From positions 1 to 43,769 of the forward strand of contig JAUYDS010000199.1 of assembly GCA_030691735.1 (NCBI GenBank): DNA of 43,769 nt. Direction: 5' to 3'. The position numbers were made by a program, and so were the translations under genes. The notes beneath the pieces were generated by a model that made no database searches, was not told the origin of the DNA, and worked only from the letters and a program-made list of their open reading frames with translations. Positions 1 through 40,414 of this stretch are shown here, in pieces; the stretch's first letter is position 1; every line of letters begins with the position of its first letter. The DNA comes from Candidatus Aminicenantota bacterium (lineage in GTDB: Bacteria > Acidobacteriota > Aminicenantia > Aminicenantales > UBA4085).

Positions 1-193
1 TCTTTCCGATATTTGGGGCACCAGACCAGATGGTAGGACGTGTCGTAGACCGAATGACTCGTTCGTCGGAGCGTCACCCCCGTAATTTATCATACCCCCG
101 AGCACGGGCCTAGCTGGATAAGGGGGACTTTCCGGTCCCCCTTATAACCCCCTCGGAACGGCATGCATTCTTCCCCGCGGCAAGCCGCGGGGC
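1..193. other. Gene-free left edge with two palindromes
   Basis: No coding region could be supported here. The stretch is richer in G+C than the AT-rich gene that follows it and contains two strong hairpins (listed separately). The frame of the following gene stays open back to 122 but has a stop at 119-121 and no start codon in that extension. The segment may be the end of an inserted element, or simply spacer DNA next to a broken gene. What lies left of the window is unknown. Confidence 0.5.
119..144. repeat. Perfect 10-bp stem hairpin
   Basis: TAAGGGGGAC (119-128) is followed by a six-base loop TTTCCG and its exact reverse complement GTCCCCCTTA (135-144). There is no T-run after either arm, so a simple rho-independent terminator is not supported. 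It could be a structured end of a mobile element or a REP-type palindrome. Confidence 0.6.
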
Positions 194-197
194 ATGC
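161..197. repeat. REP-like palindrome beside the gene fragment
   Basis: CCCCGCGG (173-180), loop CAAG, CCGCGGGG (185-192) form a perfect 8-bp stem. A flanking GCATGC on each side (161-166 and 192-197) can extend the stem across an internal loop. The design resembles bacterial REP/IS200-type hairpins. The start codon of the following gene fragment lies inside the right end of the structure, which suggests the palindrome entered or flanks a break in that gene. Confidence 0.5.
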
Positions 198-1069
198 TGC
201 AAAGGGTTTCGTCAATTAAAATGTTTTCCTTTTCTACCATATATTCCGAACAAGAATTTAATAATGCAAAAGAAGAAATCATTAACAAAAAGGATCTATT
301 GAGAGATCCAGAATGCTTAATGATAATTCATTCATCATTTATCAGGATTATAGATAATATTCGAAAGGAACCCTTTGTTGAACTTGGCAGTATTTGTACA
401 ATCTATCAAGGAATAATCACAGGCGACAATAGTAAATACATCTCGAGCTCTAAATCTGGAAAAAAGTGGGAAAAGATTATAAGGGGTAGAGATATTGATC
501 GCTATTGTTTAAAATTTGGTAATAATTATGTGTATTATGAACCAAAACTCCTTTGGAGTAATACAAATCTTATTATGTTTAATGTTGAAGAAAAGCTGAT
601 AAGTAGACAAACTAGCGATCATTTAGCTGCAACATTTGATCACGAAGCGTATTTTTCTCTCGATAGTACGCACGTTATCCATCTAAGAAAACCTATTTTT
701 TCATTGAAATATTTACTTGGTTTATTTAATAGCCGTCTCATGAATTATATATACTCAAATCGAGTACAAGAAAGCAATCGGGTTTTTGCCCAGGTTAAAG
801 CAATAAATCTCAAACCTCTTCCAATTAGAACCATTGATTTTTCAAACGCTGTCGAGCGAGACACACATAATCAATTAGTGTCCCTGGTTGAAATTATTCT
901 TTCTTTAAATAAAAAAATACAGAAAGTCGCTGGATACGAAAAAGTCCAAATCCAACATCAGATCGAAAAAACCGACCGCGAAATCGACGAGCTGGTATAT
1001 AAACTCTATGGAATTACGGATGCGGAACGCGCTATAATCGAAAAAGAAACGGACAGGAACAAATCATGA
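194..1069 (+). pseudogene. C-terminal fragment of Eco57I/type IIG restriction-modification enzyme
   Basis: The 291-residue product matches, by recognisable motifs, the C-terminal target-recognition part of Eco57I-like type IIG or stand-alone N6-adenine methyltransferases. It shows an IYQGIITGDN strand, a GRDIDRY segment, VYYEPKLLW, the RQTSDHLAATFD block, LLGLFNSRLMNYIYS, and a coiled tail ending ELVYKLYGITDAE. The family's N-terminal nuclease and SAM-binding methyltransferase domains (including the NPPY motif) are absent, and the upstream DNA is a palindrome rather than coding sequence. I therefore read it as a 5'-truncated gene with no catalytic activity of its own. No convincing ribosome binding site precedes the ATG at 194. 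It is strikingly AT-rich compared with the rest of the window, a sign of transfer. Its stop overlaps the hicB start (ATGA). It could alternatively be a separately expressed specificity subunit, but I consider that less likely. Confidence 0.7.
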
Positions 1070-20942: not shown

Positions 20943-20990
20943 TGCAGACACATACCGAATTCATTCGAATTCGGCAGGTGTCTGCGAATT
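20943..20990. repeat. Palindromic intergenic repeat, copy 1
   Basis: The left arm contains GCAGACACATACCGAATTC (to 20962), the loop is ATTC, and the right arm GAATTCGGCAGGTGTCTGC (from 20967) has two changes from the consensus. It lies between nuoA and the end of the lpd gene, both on the minus strand. It belongs to the same family as copies at 22433, 24621 and 25795. Confidence 0.85.
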
Positions 20991-22417: not shown

Positions 22418-22432
22418 GACTCGATTTTATCA

Positions 22433-22486
22433 TAATTCGCAGACACATACCGAATTCTCCGGAATTCGGTATGTGTCTGCGAATTA
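22433..22486. repeat. Palindromic intergenic repeat, copy 2 (perfect)
   Basis: Two perfectly complementary 25-base arms (22433-22457 and 22462-22486) are separated by a four-base loop TCCG. The arm includes GCAGACACATACCGAATTC and ends in TAATTCGC. It sits between the starts of the divergent lpd and Fe-S oxidoreductase genes, so it is not acting simply as a downstream terminator. There is no poly-T tract. Confidence 0.9.
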
Positions 22487-22533
22487 TCTGCTGATTCATC
22501 TAGGCTTTTGCTCGCCGTGAGATCGAACGTCCC

Positions 22534-22603: not shown

Positions 22604-24619
22604 ATGCTTTCGCTTCCGGAAAAGATCATCTTTGCCCTGATCATCCTGGGGACGGCCGCCCTGTTCCTGACGCCCCTGGTCGCCCGTTATAGGATCATCC
22701 GCGCCGGCCTCCCGGAGAACCGCTTCGACCACCTGGCAAAGCGGGTCCTCCATGCCTTGAGCAAGATCCTGTTCCAACGGTGCACCCTGAAGAACGAGCG
22801 GCTGTTCACGGGCTTCATGCACGTCTTCATCTTCTACGGCGCCCTGACCTTCGACACGGTGACGGTCAACCACACGCTCGAAGGATTCATTCCCAGCTTT
22901 TATATGTTCGGCCGCGGCGCCTTCGGCGACTTCTTTTCTCTTCTTGTCGACACGTTCGCCATTCTGGTCCTCGCCGGCGTCTTCTTCTTCGCCTTCAAAC
23001 GATTCATCCTCCGCCCCAAGGCTTACGCGACCACGCCCAAGGATTCAGTCATCATCTATACCGCCCTTATCCTTATCACGCTCAGCTATCTCTACTTCGA
23101 AGCGTTCTCCATCGCCCACCATCCAGACACGATGCGGCTCTCCACCCTGGGTTCGGCCCTGTCCTCCGCCATCCAGGGCTCAGGATTGAGCGCGGCCGCT
23201 GTCGCTGCTCATTTCAAGATCGGCTGGTGGCTCCATATCCTGCTGGTCTACGCCTTTATCGCTTACGTTCCTCATTCCAAATACCTGCACATGATCACGG
23301 GTTCATTGAACCTCGTTTTCCGCGCTCCGGGCATCGGCCGGACCATCCCGGGGTTCAACCTGGAAGGATCGGAAACCTTCGGGATCGAGAAGGCGCTCGA
23401 TCTGACGTGGAAGGACTGCCTCGATGCGCTGGCCTGCATGGAATGCGGCCGCTGCCAGGACGTCTGCCCGGCCTTCCAGAGCGACAAACCCCTGTCCCCC
23501 AAGATGATCCTGTTCAACATGAAACAGCATCTGCTCAAGAACGGACCGGCTCTCCTCAAAAAAAACCGGGACGACCTGCCCGCGCTCGTTCCGCAAATCC
23601 ACACGGAAGGCGAGATCTGGACATGCACGACATGCGGCGCCTGCATGCATGTCTGTCCGGTCGAGATCGAGCACATTCCGAAGATCGTCGGAATGCGGCA
23701 GAGCCAGGTCCTCATGGAAAGCAAATTCCCCGCCGAGCTGAACGCGTTCTTCCGCAACATGGAAACGAACGCGAACCCCTGGGGGATCGGCTTTTCAAAA
23801 CGAATCGACTGGGCGGACGGCTTGGGGATCAAGCTCATCCAGGAGCATCCGGGAACGGAATATCTATTCTGGGTCGGCTGCGCCGGCTCCTACGAAGAAG
23901 AGGGGAAAAAGACCGCCCGTGCTTTTGCCTCCCTTTTAAAAAAGGCCGGAGTGGACTTTGCCATCCTCGGTCTCGAAGAGAAATGCTGCGGCGATTCGGC
24001 CCGCCGTCTCGGGAACGAGTATCTGTTTCAAACGCTGGCCGCAGAGACGATCGATCTCTTCGCCCGCCACAAAATTAAAAAAATTCTCACCATCTGCCCC
24101 CACGGATACAACACCTTCAGGAACGAATATCCGAAATCGCTCGAACTTCTGTCGGCGGTCGGGGCTGAAGCCAAAGCCCACTACCGGACGATCGAGGTCA
24201 CCCACCACGCGGAATTTTTAGCTAAGCTCGTCCGGGAGGGTCGGCTCAAGGTCCGGCCCAACCGGGAAGGGTCCCTCACGTACCATGATCCTTGCTACCT
24301 GGGCCGGCACAACGGCATCCTTGACGAACCGCGTGAGCTGCTATCGGATATCGGCGGCCGGCCGGTCGTCGAGCTCGAGAACAGCCGGGAACATAGCTTT
24401 TGCTGCGGCGCCGGCGGAGGACTGATGTGGATGGAGGAATCCCTCGGCAAACGGATCAACCACATGCGCGCCGATGAAGTGATCCGGGCCGGGGCGAAGG
24501 GCGTAGCCACGGCTTGCCCGTTTTGTCAAACGATGCTCCGCGACGCGTTAAAAGACAAGGCGAAGGATGACATTCAGGTCAAGGATCTGGCTGTCCTGCT
24601 GGCGGAATCGATAGAATAG
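22604..24619 (+). CDS. Membrane Fe-S oxidoreductase, EMR/EtfD-like (ETF:quinone type)
   Basis: A 671-residue fusion of a cytochrome b-like membrane domain and an HdrD-like electron-transfer domain. Transmembrane segments lie at about 7-27, 70-90, 108-132, 148-168 and 206-228; histidines around 73, 90, 211 and 224-229 could bind heme b as in NarI-type anchors. Two ferredoxin motifs follow: CMECGRCQDVCP (Cys 278, 281, 284, 288) and CTTCGACMHVCP (Cys 341, 344, 347, 351). Then come two CCG-type cluster domains (CCGDSARR at 461 and SFCCGAGGGLMW at 599, with GCAGSYEEEG and YHDPCYLGRHN). This architecture is known from membrane oxidoreductases that pass electrons between electron-transfer flavoprotein and menaquinone in anaerobic beta-oxidation. 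GAGGAG precedes the ATG. No etfAB or acyl-CoA dehydrogenase is in the window, so the ETF partner is inferred. Confidence 0.82.
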   Translation: MLSLPEKIIFALIILGTAALFLTPLVARYRIIRAGLPENRFDHLAKRVLHALSKILFQRCTLKNERLFTGFMHVFIFYGALTFDTVTVNHTLEGFIPSFYMFGRGAFGDFFSLLVDTFAILVLAGVFFFAFKRFILRPKAYATTPKDSVIIYTALILITLSYLYFEAFSIAHHPDTMRLSTLGSALSSAIQGSGLSAAAVAAHFKIGWWLHILLVYAFIAYVPHSKYLHMITGSLNLVFRAPGIGRTIPGFNLEGSETFGIEKALDLTWKDCLDALACMECGRCQDVCPAFQSDKPLSPKMILFNMKQHLLKNGPALLKKNRDDLPALVPQIHTEGEIWTCTTCGACMHVCPVEIEHIPKIVGMRQSQVLMESKFPAELNAFFRNMETNANPWGIGFSKRIDWADGLGIKLIQEHPGTEYLFWVGCAGSYEEEGKKTARAFASLLKKAGVDFAILGLEEKCCGDSARRLGNEYLFQTLAAETIDLFARHKIKKILTICPHGYNTFRNEYPKSLELLSAVGAEAKAHYRTIEVTHHAEFLAKLVREGRLKVRPNREGSLTYHDPCYLGRHNGILDEPRELLSDIGGRPVVELENSREHSFCCGAGGGLMWMEESLGKRINHMRADEVIRAGAKGVATACPFCQTMLRDALKDKAKDDIQVKDLAVLLAESIE

Positions 24620-24620
24620 A

Positions 24621-24674
24621 TAATTCGCAGACACATACCGAATTCCAGAGAATTCGGTATGTGTCTGCGAATTA
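24621..24674. repeat. Palindromic intergenic repeat, copy 3
   Basis: Perfect 25-base arms at 24621-24645 and 24650-24674 with loop CAGA, identical in arm sequence to copy 2. It begins one base after the stop codon of the Fe-S oxidoreductase gene. A solitary extra right-arm fragment (24682-24700, GAATTCGGTATGTGTaCGC with one change) follows, showing a partial duplication. Confidence 0.9.
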
Positions 24675-24681
24675 TCACAAG

Positions 24682-39358: not shown

Positions 39359-40414
39359 ATGGACGGTCTGATCCTCGTTCGCAAACCCGTTCCTGCGACC
39401 TCCCATGATGTCGTCGCGGCGCTCCGAAAGATCCTGATCCAGAAAAGGATCGGCCATTTCGGGACGCTCGACCCGCTGGCCTCCGGCCTTCTCCTCGCCG
39501 CCGTCGGAAAAGCCACACGCCTTTTCCCCTTCTACAGCAAAATGGACAAGATCTACGAAGGCCGCATCCGCCTGGGCTTTTCAACCGATACCTTCGATGC
39601 CGCCGGCCTTCCCACCTCCGCGGAATGCGGTCTTTTTCCCGCCCGCGCCGCGATCGAGGCCGCCCTTCGGGATTTCGATGGTGAGATCACCCAGATCCCA
39701 CCGCCCTATTCGGCGAAAAAGGTCGGGGGAAAACCCCTTTATGCTTACGCCCGCCGAAAAACGCCCGTCGACGGCCGTCCGTTCCAAGTGCGGATCCACT
39801 CGTTCGAACTCCTGGGGGTTGTCGCTCCTCATATCGATTTCGCGGTGAGATGCGGCTCGGGAACCTATATCCGAGCCCTCGCCCATGACCTCGGCCAAAA
39901 GCTGGGCTGCGGAGCCCACCTTGCGGAGTTGGTCCGGACCGGGATCGGCGAATTCAGCTTGAATGACGGTCTGACCTTGGACGAGATCCGGGTTTTTCAA
40001 GAGATCGGCGCGACCGAGAGATTCCTTTTGCCCATGGAATCGCTTCTGCCCTCTTTGGCCAAGATCCAAATCAGCGAAGAAGGCGTTCAGAGGATCCGGA
40101 ACGGCCGTTCGATCTCGGCCGAACAGGTCAAGGGACGAGCCTTCGCGGCGGAAGTAGACCCCCGGGCAAAGCCCGGGGCACTCACCCGCGATGTAAATAC
40201 GCGGCTGAGTACGGCGGAAACGGATCCCCAGACAAAGCCTGGGGCCCCTGCCGCCGCCCCGGCCGCCGTCGCGGAATCCGAGGGAAACGGGCCTCCGGTC
40301 GTTCAGGCCGACCCGGAGATCGTCGTCCGGCTATTCGGCCCGGACGGCCGGCTGATCGCCCTGGCCCGCCGTGCCGCTCCTCCCGGCCTTTTCGCGCCTT
40401 TCTTCGTCCTCTAA
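39359..40414 (+). CDS. truB: tRNA pseudouridine(55) synthase TruB, with low-complexity insertion
   Basis: A 351-residue enzyme making pseudouridine 55 in the T loop of tRNAs. GLILVRKPVPATSHDVVAALRK starts the protein and the catalytic Asp is in GTLDPLASGLL (Asp 38). YEGRIRLG, PPYSAKKVGGKPLYAYARR and GTYIRALAHDLGQKLGCGAHL follow. In the C-terminal PUA-like region, after ISAEQVKGRAF, the sequence is interrupted by AEVDPRAKPGALTRD...ETDPQTKPGAPAAAPAA (about residues 260-320) before EIVVRLFGPDGRLIALARR resumes. The inserted stretch contains two related palindromic DNA units 66 bp apart, in frame (see the repeat entry). The catalytic domain is intact, so activity should remain. Starts three bases after nrnA. 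Confidence 0.93.
   Translation: MDGLILVRKPVPATSHDVVAALRKILIQKRIGHFGTLDPLASGLLLAAVGKATRLFPFYSKMDKIYEGRIRLGFSTDTFDAAGLPTSAECGLFPARAAIEAALRDFDGEITQIPPPYSAKKVGGKPLYAYARRKTPVDGRPFQVRIHSFELLGVVAPHIDFAVRCGSGTYIRALAHDLGQKLGCGAHLAELVRTGIGEFSLNDGLTLDEIRVFQEIGATERFLLPMESLLPSLAKIQISEEGVQRIRNGRSISAEQVKGRAFAAEVDPRAKPGALTRDVNTRLSTAETDPQTKPGAPAAAPAAVAESEGNGPPVVQADPEIVVRLFGPDGRLIALARRAAPPGLFAPFFVL
40156..40250. repeat. Pair of palindromic units inserted in truB
   Basis: Unit 1 CCCCGGGC-AAA-GCCCGGGG (40160-40178) is a perfect 8-bp stem. Unit 2 CCCCAGAC-AAA-GCCTGGGG (40226-40244) has one mismatch. The starts of the stems are 66 bases apart, so both units are read in the same frame and give DPRAKPGA and DPQTKPGA. 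The flanks are also alike (GA-C/T-CCCC, GGGGC), so they look like two copies of one mobile palindrome carried in coding DNA, comparable in principle to Rickettsia palindromic elements. Confidence 0.75.

Follow-up and report, generated by a model that had tools for sequence, protein, structure and literature searches.

A high-copy palindromic element, probably mobile, in frame within truB and other genes of an uncultured Candidatus Aminicenantes bacterium

We analyzed a stretch of 43,769 nucleotides (here, the window) from the draft metagenome assembly of an uncultured Candidatus Aminicenantes bacterium (G000; 2.86 Mb; 211 contigs; 92.5% complete). The window contains truB, which includes two palindromes near its 3' end (Table 1). 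The first (CCCCGGGC-AAA-GCCCGGGG) encodes DPRAKPGA, and the second (CCCCAGAC-AAA-GCCTGGGG) encodes DPQTKPGA; as reported in a preliminary description of this DNA, they are 66 bp apart and both are in the truB frame. That description regarded them as two separate units within a 60-residue loop. Both are instead parts of one composite element, and the net insertion amounts to 47 residues. The truB copy consists of the left cap, CGGCGGAAGTGGAC, palindrome P, a 66-bp repeat unit (i.e., hairpin K and palindrome Q), and the right cap.

Table 1. Features of the window related to the truB insert and its neighbors
Feature	Positions	Strand	Evidence
Truncated IS200-family insertion sequence end, not part of the truB element	1..225	-	Same sequence ends an IS200-type copy (L142) whose transposase matches PF01797
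truB (host gene), 351 codons, encoding tRNA pseudouridine(55) synthase	39359..40414	+	Pfam TruB_N and TruB_C_2; NCBIfam TIGR00431 TruB, E 1e-63
Complete 141-bp putative mobile palindromic element, form LgPKgQR; net 47 codons VKGRAFAAEVDPRAKPGALTRDVNTRLSTAETDPQTKPGAPAAAPAA	40127..40267	+	~40 near-full-length copies in own genome; boundaries from filled/empty pairs of other copies
Left cap GTCAAGGGACGAGCCTTCG	40127..40145	+	158 copies in own genome (G000), 78 in congener (G001), 0 for reversed control; nothing conserved leftward
Palindrome P, perfect 8-bp stem, AAA loop	40160..40178	+	Genome matches; compensatory changes among copies
Hairpin K ACTCACCCGCG-ATGTAAATA-CGCGGCTGAGT	40180..40210	+	Flank comparison; folding
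Palindrome Q CCCCAGACAAAGCCTGGGG, one mismatch	40226..40244	+	Flank comparison
Right cap CCCCTGCCGCCGCCCCGGCCGCC, ending CCCCGGCCGCC	40245..40267	+	Flank comparison; parsed copies
Target-site remnant GTCGC (congener, GTCGA; family consensus, GTSGA)	40268..40272	+	Right-flank logo of 100 copies; empty sites

A third palindrome, at positions 161 to 197 (CCCCGCGGCAAGCCGCGGGG), had been likened to those in truB. It belongs to an IS200-family insertion sequence truncated at the contig edge, of which it forms the terminal hairpin; the same end is found in L142, and the palindrome was therefore rejected as a member of the truB-element family. Elsewhere in the window, two perfect 26- to 27-bp inverted repeats (ATAATTCGCAGACACATACCGAATTC...; positions 22432 to 22487 and 24619 to 24676) are separated by ~2.2 kb, and a degenerate copy occupies 20953 to 20976; these are possibly the ends of another mobile element or of a RAYT-type unit.

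The insert was absent from TruB in 28 of 30 aligned genomes, all from the same order. Regarding the suggestion that relatives might possess the loop without palindromic DNA, the sole relative with the loop (congener G001, also a Candidatus Aminicenantes bacterium) carries palindromic element DNA there. In G001, the insertion is at the identical nucleotide but is a 102-bp form with other internal modules. Because 141- and 102-bp forms occupy one nucleotide, the two TruB proteins differ by 13 residues and the frame is unchanged. The simplest reading of these alignments would be one old insertion followed by in-place module exchange; independent insertions at one site or a mis-assembled interior may also explain the difference. 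Given that these are draft metagenome assemblies in which near-identical copies break contigs, mis-assembly could affect the interior of any one copy, the 141-bp truB form included. In an alignment with the solved Thermotoga maritima TruB, the insert is bracketed by residues corresponding to positions 254 and 264, which places it in the C-terminal PUA-domain region, at a loop of the PUA domain. The loop was placed only via the alignment, since an AlphaFold prediction of TruB (two sequences allowed) was useless (mean pLDDT, 34).

A search of the own genome with the 19-mer palindrome (≤3 mismatches) yielded 173 forward and 186 reverse matches, well above what chance would give, while the reversed control yielded none. 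An exact copy scores once per strand, which means that there are fewer hairpins than the summed matches suggest; the exact palindrome was present at 98 places among the matches listed. BLAST detected ~40 near-full-length copies (96 to 100% identity). The additional copies that the preliminary description proposed to look for were scattered both inside and outside genes. True copy numbers may be higher because many copies are located at the ends of contigs, where repeats would be expected in a short-read assembly.

Base-by-base reading covered approximately 30% of the own genome, picked for holding copies. We parsed 109 complete copies from 861 kb of G000 and ~0.29 Mb of G001; the commonest net lengths were 102 bp (30 copies), 141 bp (19), 63 bp (18), and 180 bp (10). 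Comparison of these copies showed that the four forms are built by means of optional 39- and 78-bp modules, and all four lengths are multiples of three. An extra 37-bp module was found in 178-bp copies outside confident frames; one copy with this module (L066) is 1 bp shorter (177 bp) and lies, in frame, within a large gene of the glycoside hydrolase type. Some copies are nested inside others at AAGT^GGAC, which is itself a GTGGA target. Compensatory stem changes numbered 15, compared with 5.6 in shuffles (maximum, 13), which ignore the relatedness among copies. In hairpin folding, the truB element had a z score of -3.0 and the 102-bp form one of -6.9. One gene region (L073, 2468 to 3794) has two complete and at least two degenerate copies in a 1.4-kb span surrounding an ABC transporter gene. 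At one intergenic site (L109, 1881 to 2440; L123, 10430 to 10690), both species carry copies, which differ in form and are shifted in position.

Copies are numerous in the own genus and in G006 (36), and G002 has few (6). In another family, some members of one genus also have many copies (G016, 23; G022, 31; G090, 12); most of the 99 relatives searched, the remaining members of this genus among them, have nearly none. Across families, the caps are conserved, and the interiors and lengths vary, often not being multiples of three; 1 of ~20 such copies read was in a convincing gene (L183, 138 bp). At three loci in G016 and G022 (L173, L179, and L181), long unrelated palindromic interiors (CCGGCTTCGCCACCGGCTTTGCAGTGCCGGTGCTGG...) lie between the caps, as though these served as a general frame for differing cargo.

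Aligned stretches of G000 and G001 were mostly 80 to 91% identical, and they provided pairs of filled and empty loci. The targets in these pairs were GTCGA, GTTGA, or similar. For example, in the ligA pair (net, 180 bp), the empty site reads GGGGGGAG|GTCGAGGTGCGC, and the filled site reads CGGGAG[GTCAAGGG...CCGCC]GTCGAGGTGCGC. The right flanks of 100 copies gave a logo (G, 1.00; T, 0.84; C/G, 0.90; G, 0.94; A, 0.73) corresponding to GTSGA, while nothing was conserved in the left flank. Regarding a 2-bp target duplication, the 20 listed copies with a right dinucleotide other than GT nearly all begin with GT regardless; GT is therefore not a duplicated target, and this possibility was ruled out. 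The locus comparisons show insertion beside GTSGA without target duplication. Read on the reverse strand, the target becomes TCSAC, followed by an element that includes the hairpins and ends in TTGAC.

Because this reverse-strand arrangement (i.e., an element located 3' of TCSAC, with hairpins and a TTGAC end) is the layout of IS200/IS605 elements, we tentatively favor single-strand transposition by a Y1/HUH-type transposase acting in trans, which would be the most likely route, albeit at somewhat less than even odds. A search for a mobilizing enzyme found none. The Y1_Tnp genes did not track the element: none were found in G022 and G090, which have copies, while such genes are present in G034, G044, G046, and G058, which have almost no copies. 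No element cap, palindrome, or end was observed at any Y1_Tnp locus read. With neither linkage nor co-occurrence, a Y1 transposase as a linked mobilizer was unsupported. There was no Y2/IS91 transposase in the own genome and no autonomous copy among the left caps lacking the usual interior (~1.15 Mb). A search for a viral vector did not find the exact left cap in any of 2.9 million viral contigs.

Two resident systems were considered as the source of a transposase. The first is the TnpA of IS200 (L142), which would mobilize the element in trans on the basis of its reverse-strand likeness. The hairpins of the IS200 are of the CCCCGCGGC-TT-GCCGCGGGG type; the IS200 and the element both end in TTGAC and both have GC-rich hairpins with T loops. 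However, the IS200 adjoins TTGAC, whereas the element adjoins TCSAC; their hairpin sequences and spacings differ; and no IS200-type TnpA was found in G001, G006, G016, or G022, all of which have copies. We consider this source unlikely. Slightly less likely still is a RAYT/REP system, in which the palindromes would be REPs moved by a resident TnpA-REP transposase. The perfect 8-bp stem and 3-nucleotide loop have the geometry of Stenotrophomonas REPs (PMC8266576), and RAYT-sized Y1 genes are present in G000 and G001, but the RAYT loci read end in other repeats and lack element caps, the hairpin foot lacks GTAG, and the absence of a Y1 match in G022 and G090 applies here as well. RAYT-like Y1 transposase genes at two loci (L159, G000 C144; L157, G001 C113) have their own flanking inverted repeats (GGGGTCGCGTCTACA and GGGGGACGACGCATCCTGTCCCC), which are unrelated to the truB element.

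Copies in genes were assessed in two ways. First, a home-made phased Markov coding model was used to find confident open frames. All 25 confidently coding copies were in frame and had a length divisible by three, compared with 64 of 83 copies elsewhere (Fisher P = 0.004). Second, the elements were excised in silico, and genes were called blind on the remaining DNA, likewise with a home-made model. By this test, 33 of 94 testable copies were in genes, and the frame was open in 31 of the 33. The element is depleted from genes (~35% of testable copies versus 93% of GTSGA sites). Simulated insertion of these copies into random genic GTSGA sites kept the frame in 69% of cases, which is below the observed 31 of 33 (P = 5e-4). 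The frame was kept by 73 to 90% of insertions of the canonical forms versus 51 to 52% for shuffled or random genomic DNA of equal lengths (these shuffles also ignore relatedness), which suggests that the stop-free fit of the element is more than a matter of GC-rich composition. The simulation and the observed proportion point to two layers, in that the element itself is compatible with coding DNA and frame-breaking copies are removed. As far as assembled sequences can show it, insertion into genes preserves the frame.

Regarding codon phase, about 5,000 genic GTSGA sites included 1,892 read as GTS|GA in the sense direction and 2,006 in the matching antisense phase. The 25 coding copies were distributed as 11 and 9 in these two main phases and 4 and 1 in minor ones. 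In the two main phases, the 63-bp form reads VKGRAFAAEVDPRAKPGAPAA or GGRGPGLCPGVHFRREGSSLD, both of which are stop free. Pfam domains were matched on both sides of many inserts. The host matches include the LigA adenylation domain, phosphoglucomutase domain II, GH94, the C-terminal domain of a UvrD-like helicase, a glycosyltransferase, GH38, HypF, ABC transporters, and a histidine kinase, among others. The single ligA detected in G001 carries a 60-residue in-frame insert.

The preliminary description had the palindromes translated inside truB. The open frame was confirmed; translation as part of the host protein is what we infer from the open frame and the host domains matched by Pfam on both sides of inserts. 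The TruB peptide stretch VKGRAFAAEVDPR, like the right junction, would mark translation of the insert. A very improbable alternative is RNA-level excision of the element or its bypass by ribosomes (e.g., as an intron or a mitochondrial byp-like element), so that it is never translated. Its hairpins are strong, and the hosts include conserved enzymes expected to tolerate inserts poorly. However, neither splicing nor bypass needs lengths divisible by three or stop-free frames, yet the copies in genes keep the frame and frame-breaking copies are missing from genes; moreover, no Rfam family matched the element at the gathering score. Virtually no credence is left for the idea that Pro/Lys/Gly codons of a low-complexity loop produce the symmetry without any mobile element. 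The loop does have a high content of P, A, G, and K, and TruB C-terminal loops vary in length among relatives, but near-identical DNA is present dozens of times outside genes, where hairpins are retained without a coding reason, and in both orientations within genes, and clean empty sites exist for other copies.

With high confidence, we interpret the truB feature as one copy of a high-copy non-autonomous mobile element made of palindromic modules between fixed caps and inserted at GTSGA. The in-frame entry of mobile palindromic DNA into truB, as originally proposed, is corroborated by the dispersed copies, the TruB proteins without the loop, and the empty sites at other loci. An insertion adjoining GTSGA, bounded by GTCAAGGGACGAGCCTTCG on the left and CCCCGGCCGCC on the right, adds 63, 102, 141, or 180 bp. 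Its compatibility with coding sequences has three parts: these lengths are multiples of three; in genes, GTSGA lies mostly in two codon phases, which impose element frames without stops in either orientation; and selection removes frame-breaking copies. Whether the element itself evolved harmlessness in genes (i.e., multiple-of-three modules, stop-free reading in both orientations in the frames imposed by the target, and in-place module exchange without frameshift) is a nearly balanced question, on which we lean slightly toward doubt. If true, it would be a frame-neutral transposable element adding loops of 21 to 60 residues to enzymes genome-wide.

The second description of in-frame palindromic elements (cited in PMC10969869) declared them unique to Rickettsia in its title, and it was only supposed in a 2024 review that a comparable process might exist outside Rickettsia. 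The Aminicenantes element would represent a second, unrelated case from another phylum, with recent insertions. Its paired empty sites, defined target, and modular grammar allow the adaptation of selfish DNA to coding sequences to be addressed. Furthermore, the hosts again include TruB, DNA ligase, and UvrD-type helicases, which have been reported as hosts in Rickettsia and REP-bearing bacteria; because of these recurrent hosts, it is testable whether some proteins are repeated landing places.

Our literature search regarding repeats in Aminicenantes found nothing relevant, and we compared the element with systems described in other organisms. A DDE-type MITE was rejected, as the element ends are not inverted repeats of each other and target duplication had been ruled out. 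PARCELs are likewise palindromic, translated DNA that is probably spreading (PMC2996958), but they consist of 25-residue units repeated in tandem within unassigned ORFs that are often membrane targeted, whereas the truB element is an isolated insert in diverse enzymes. IS200/IS605 elements and their non-autonomous derivatives similarly lack a target duplication and have a short fixed insertion neighbor and subterminal hairpins. The truB element, on its reverse strand, likewise follows a fixed target and has end hairpins, and it probably shares the target-like 3' end. Unlike IS200/IS605, it contains no transposase gene, and no partner Y1 transposase with the same ends was found at the Y1 loci read.

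Intragenic REPs (GTAG and CGTC superfamilies) are also high-copy palindromes, and some are translated inside genes, including truB, the DNA ligase gene, and uvrD in other bacteria (PMC3733652). However, REP units are 20 to 40 bp, whereas the truB element forms composites of 63 to 180 bp with GTGGAC or ACGGAT at the foot in place of a GTAG or CGTC tag; its stem begins with C-G, while CGTC stems begin with A-T. No RAYT gene flanked by element repeats was present at the Y1_Tnp loci read. The Rickettsia palindromic elements (especially RPE-1, RPE-4, and RPE-6), the best-known case of translated mobile palindromes, are likewise short, palindromic, in frame in many unrelated genes, and also present between genes, and RPE-1 is located inside truB of R. 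conorii (PMC3733652; PMC10969869). The truB element shares the presence of in-frame palindromic DNA in unrelated genes. It differs in belonging to an unrelated phylum, in having fixed caps around exchangeable modules and a defined GTSGA target, and in being used in both orientations and several frames; its insert peptides matched no NCBIfam model, including the RPE domain model (RPE families were compared by protein model only). In these comparisons, the truB element matched none of the families tested, and it works like the RPEs and intragenic REPs.
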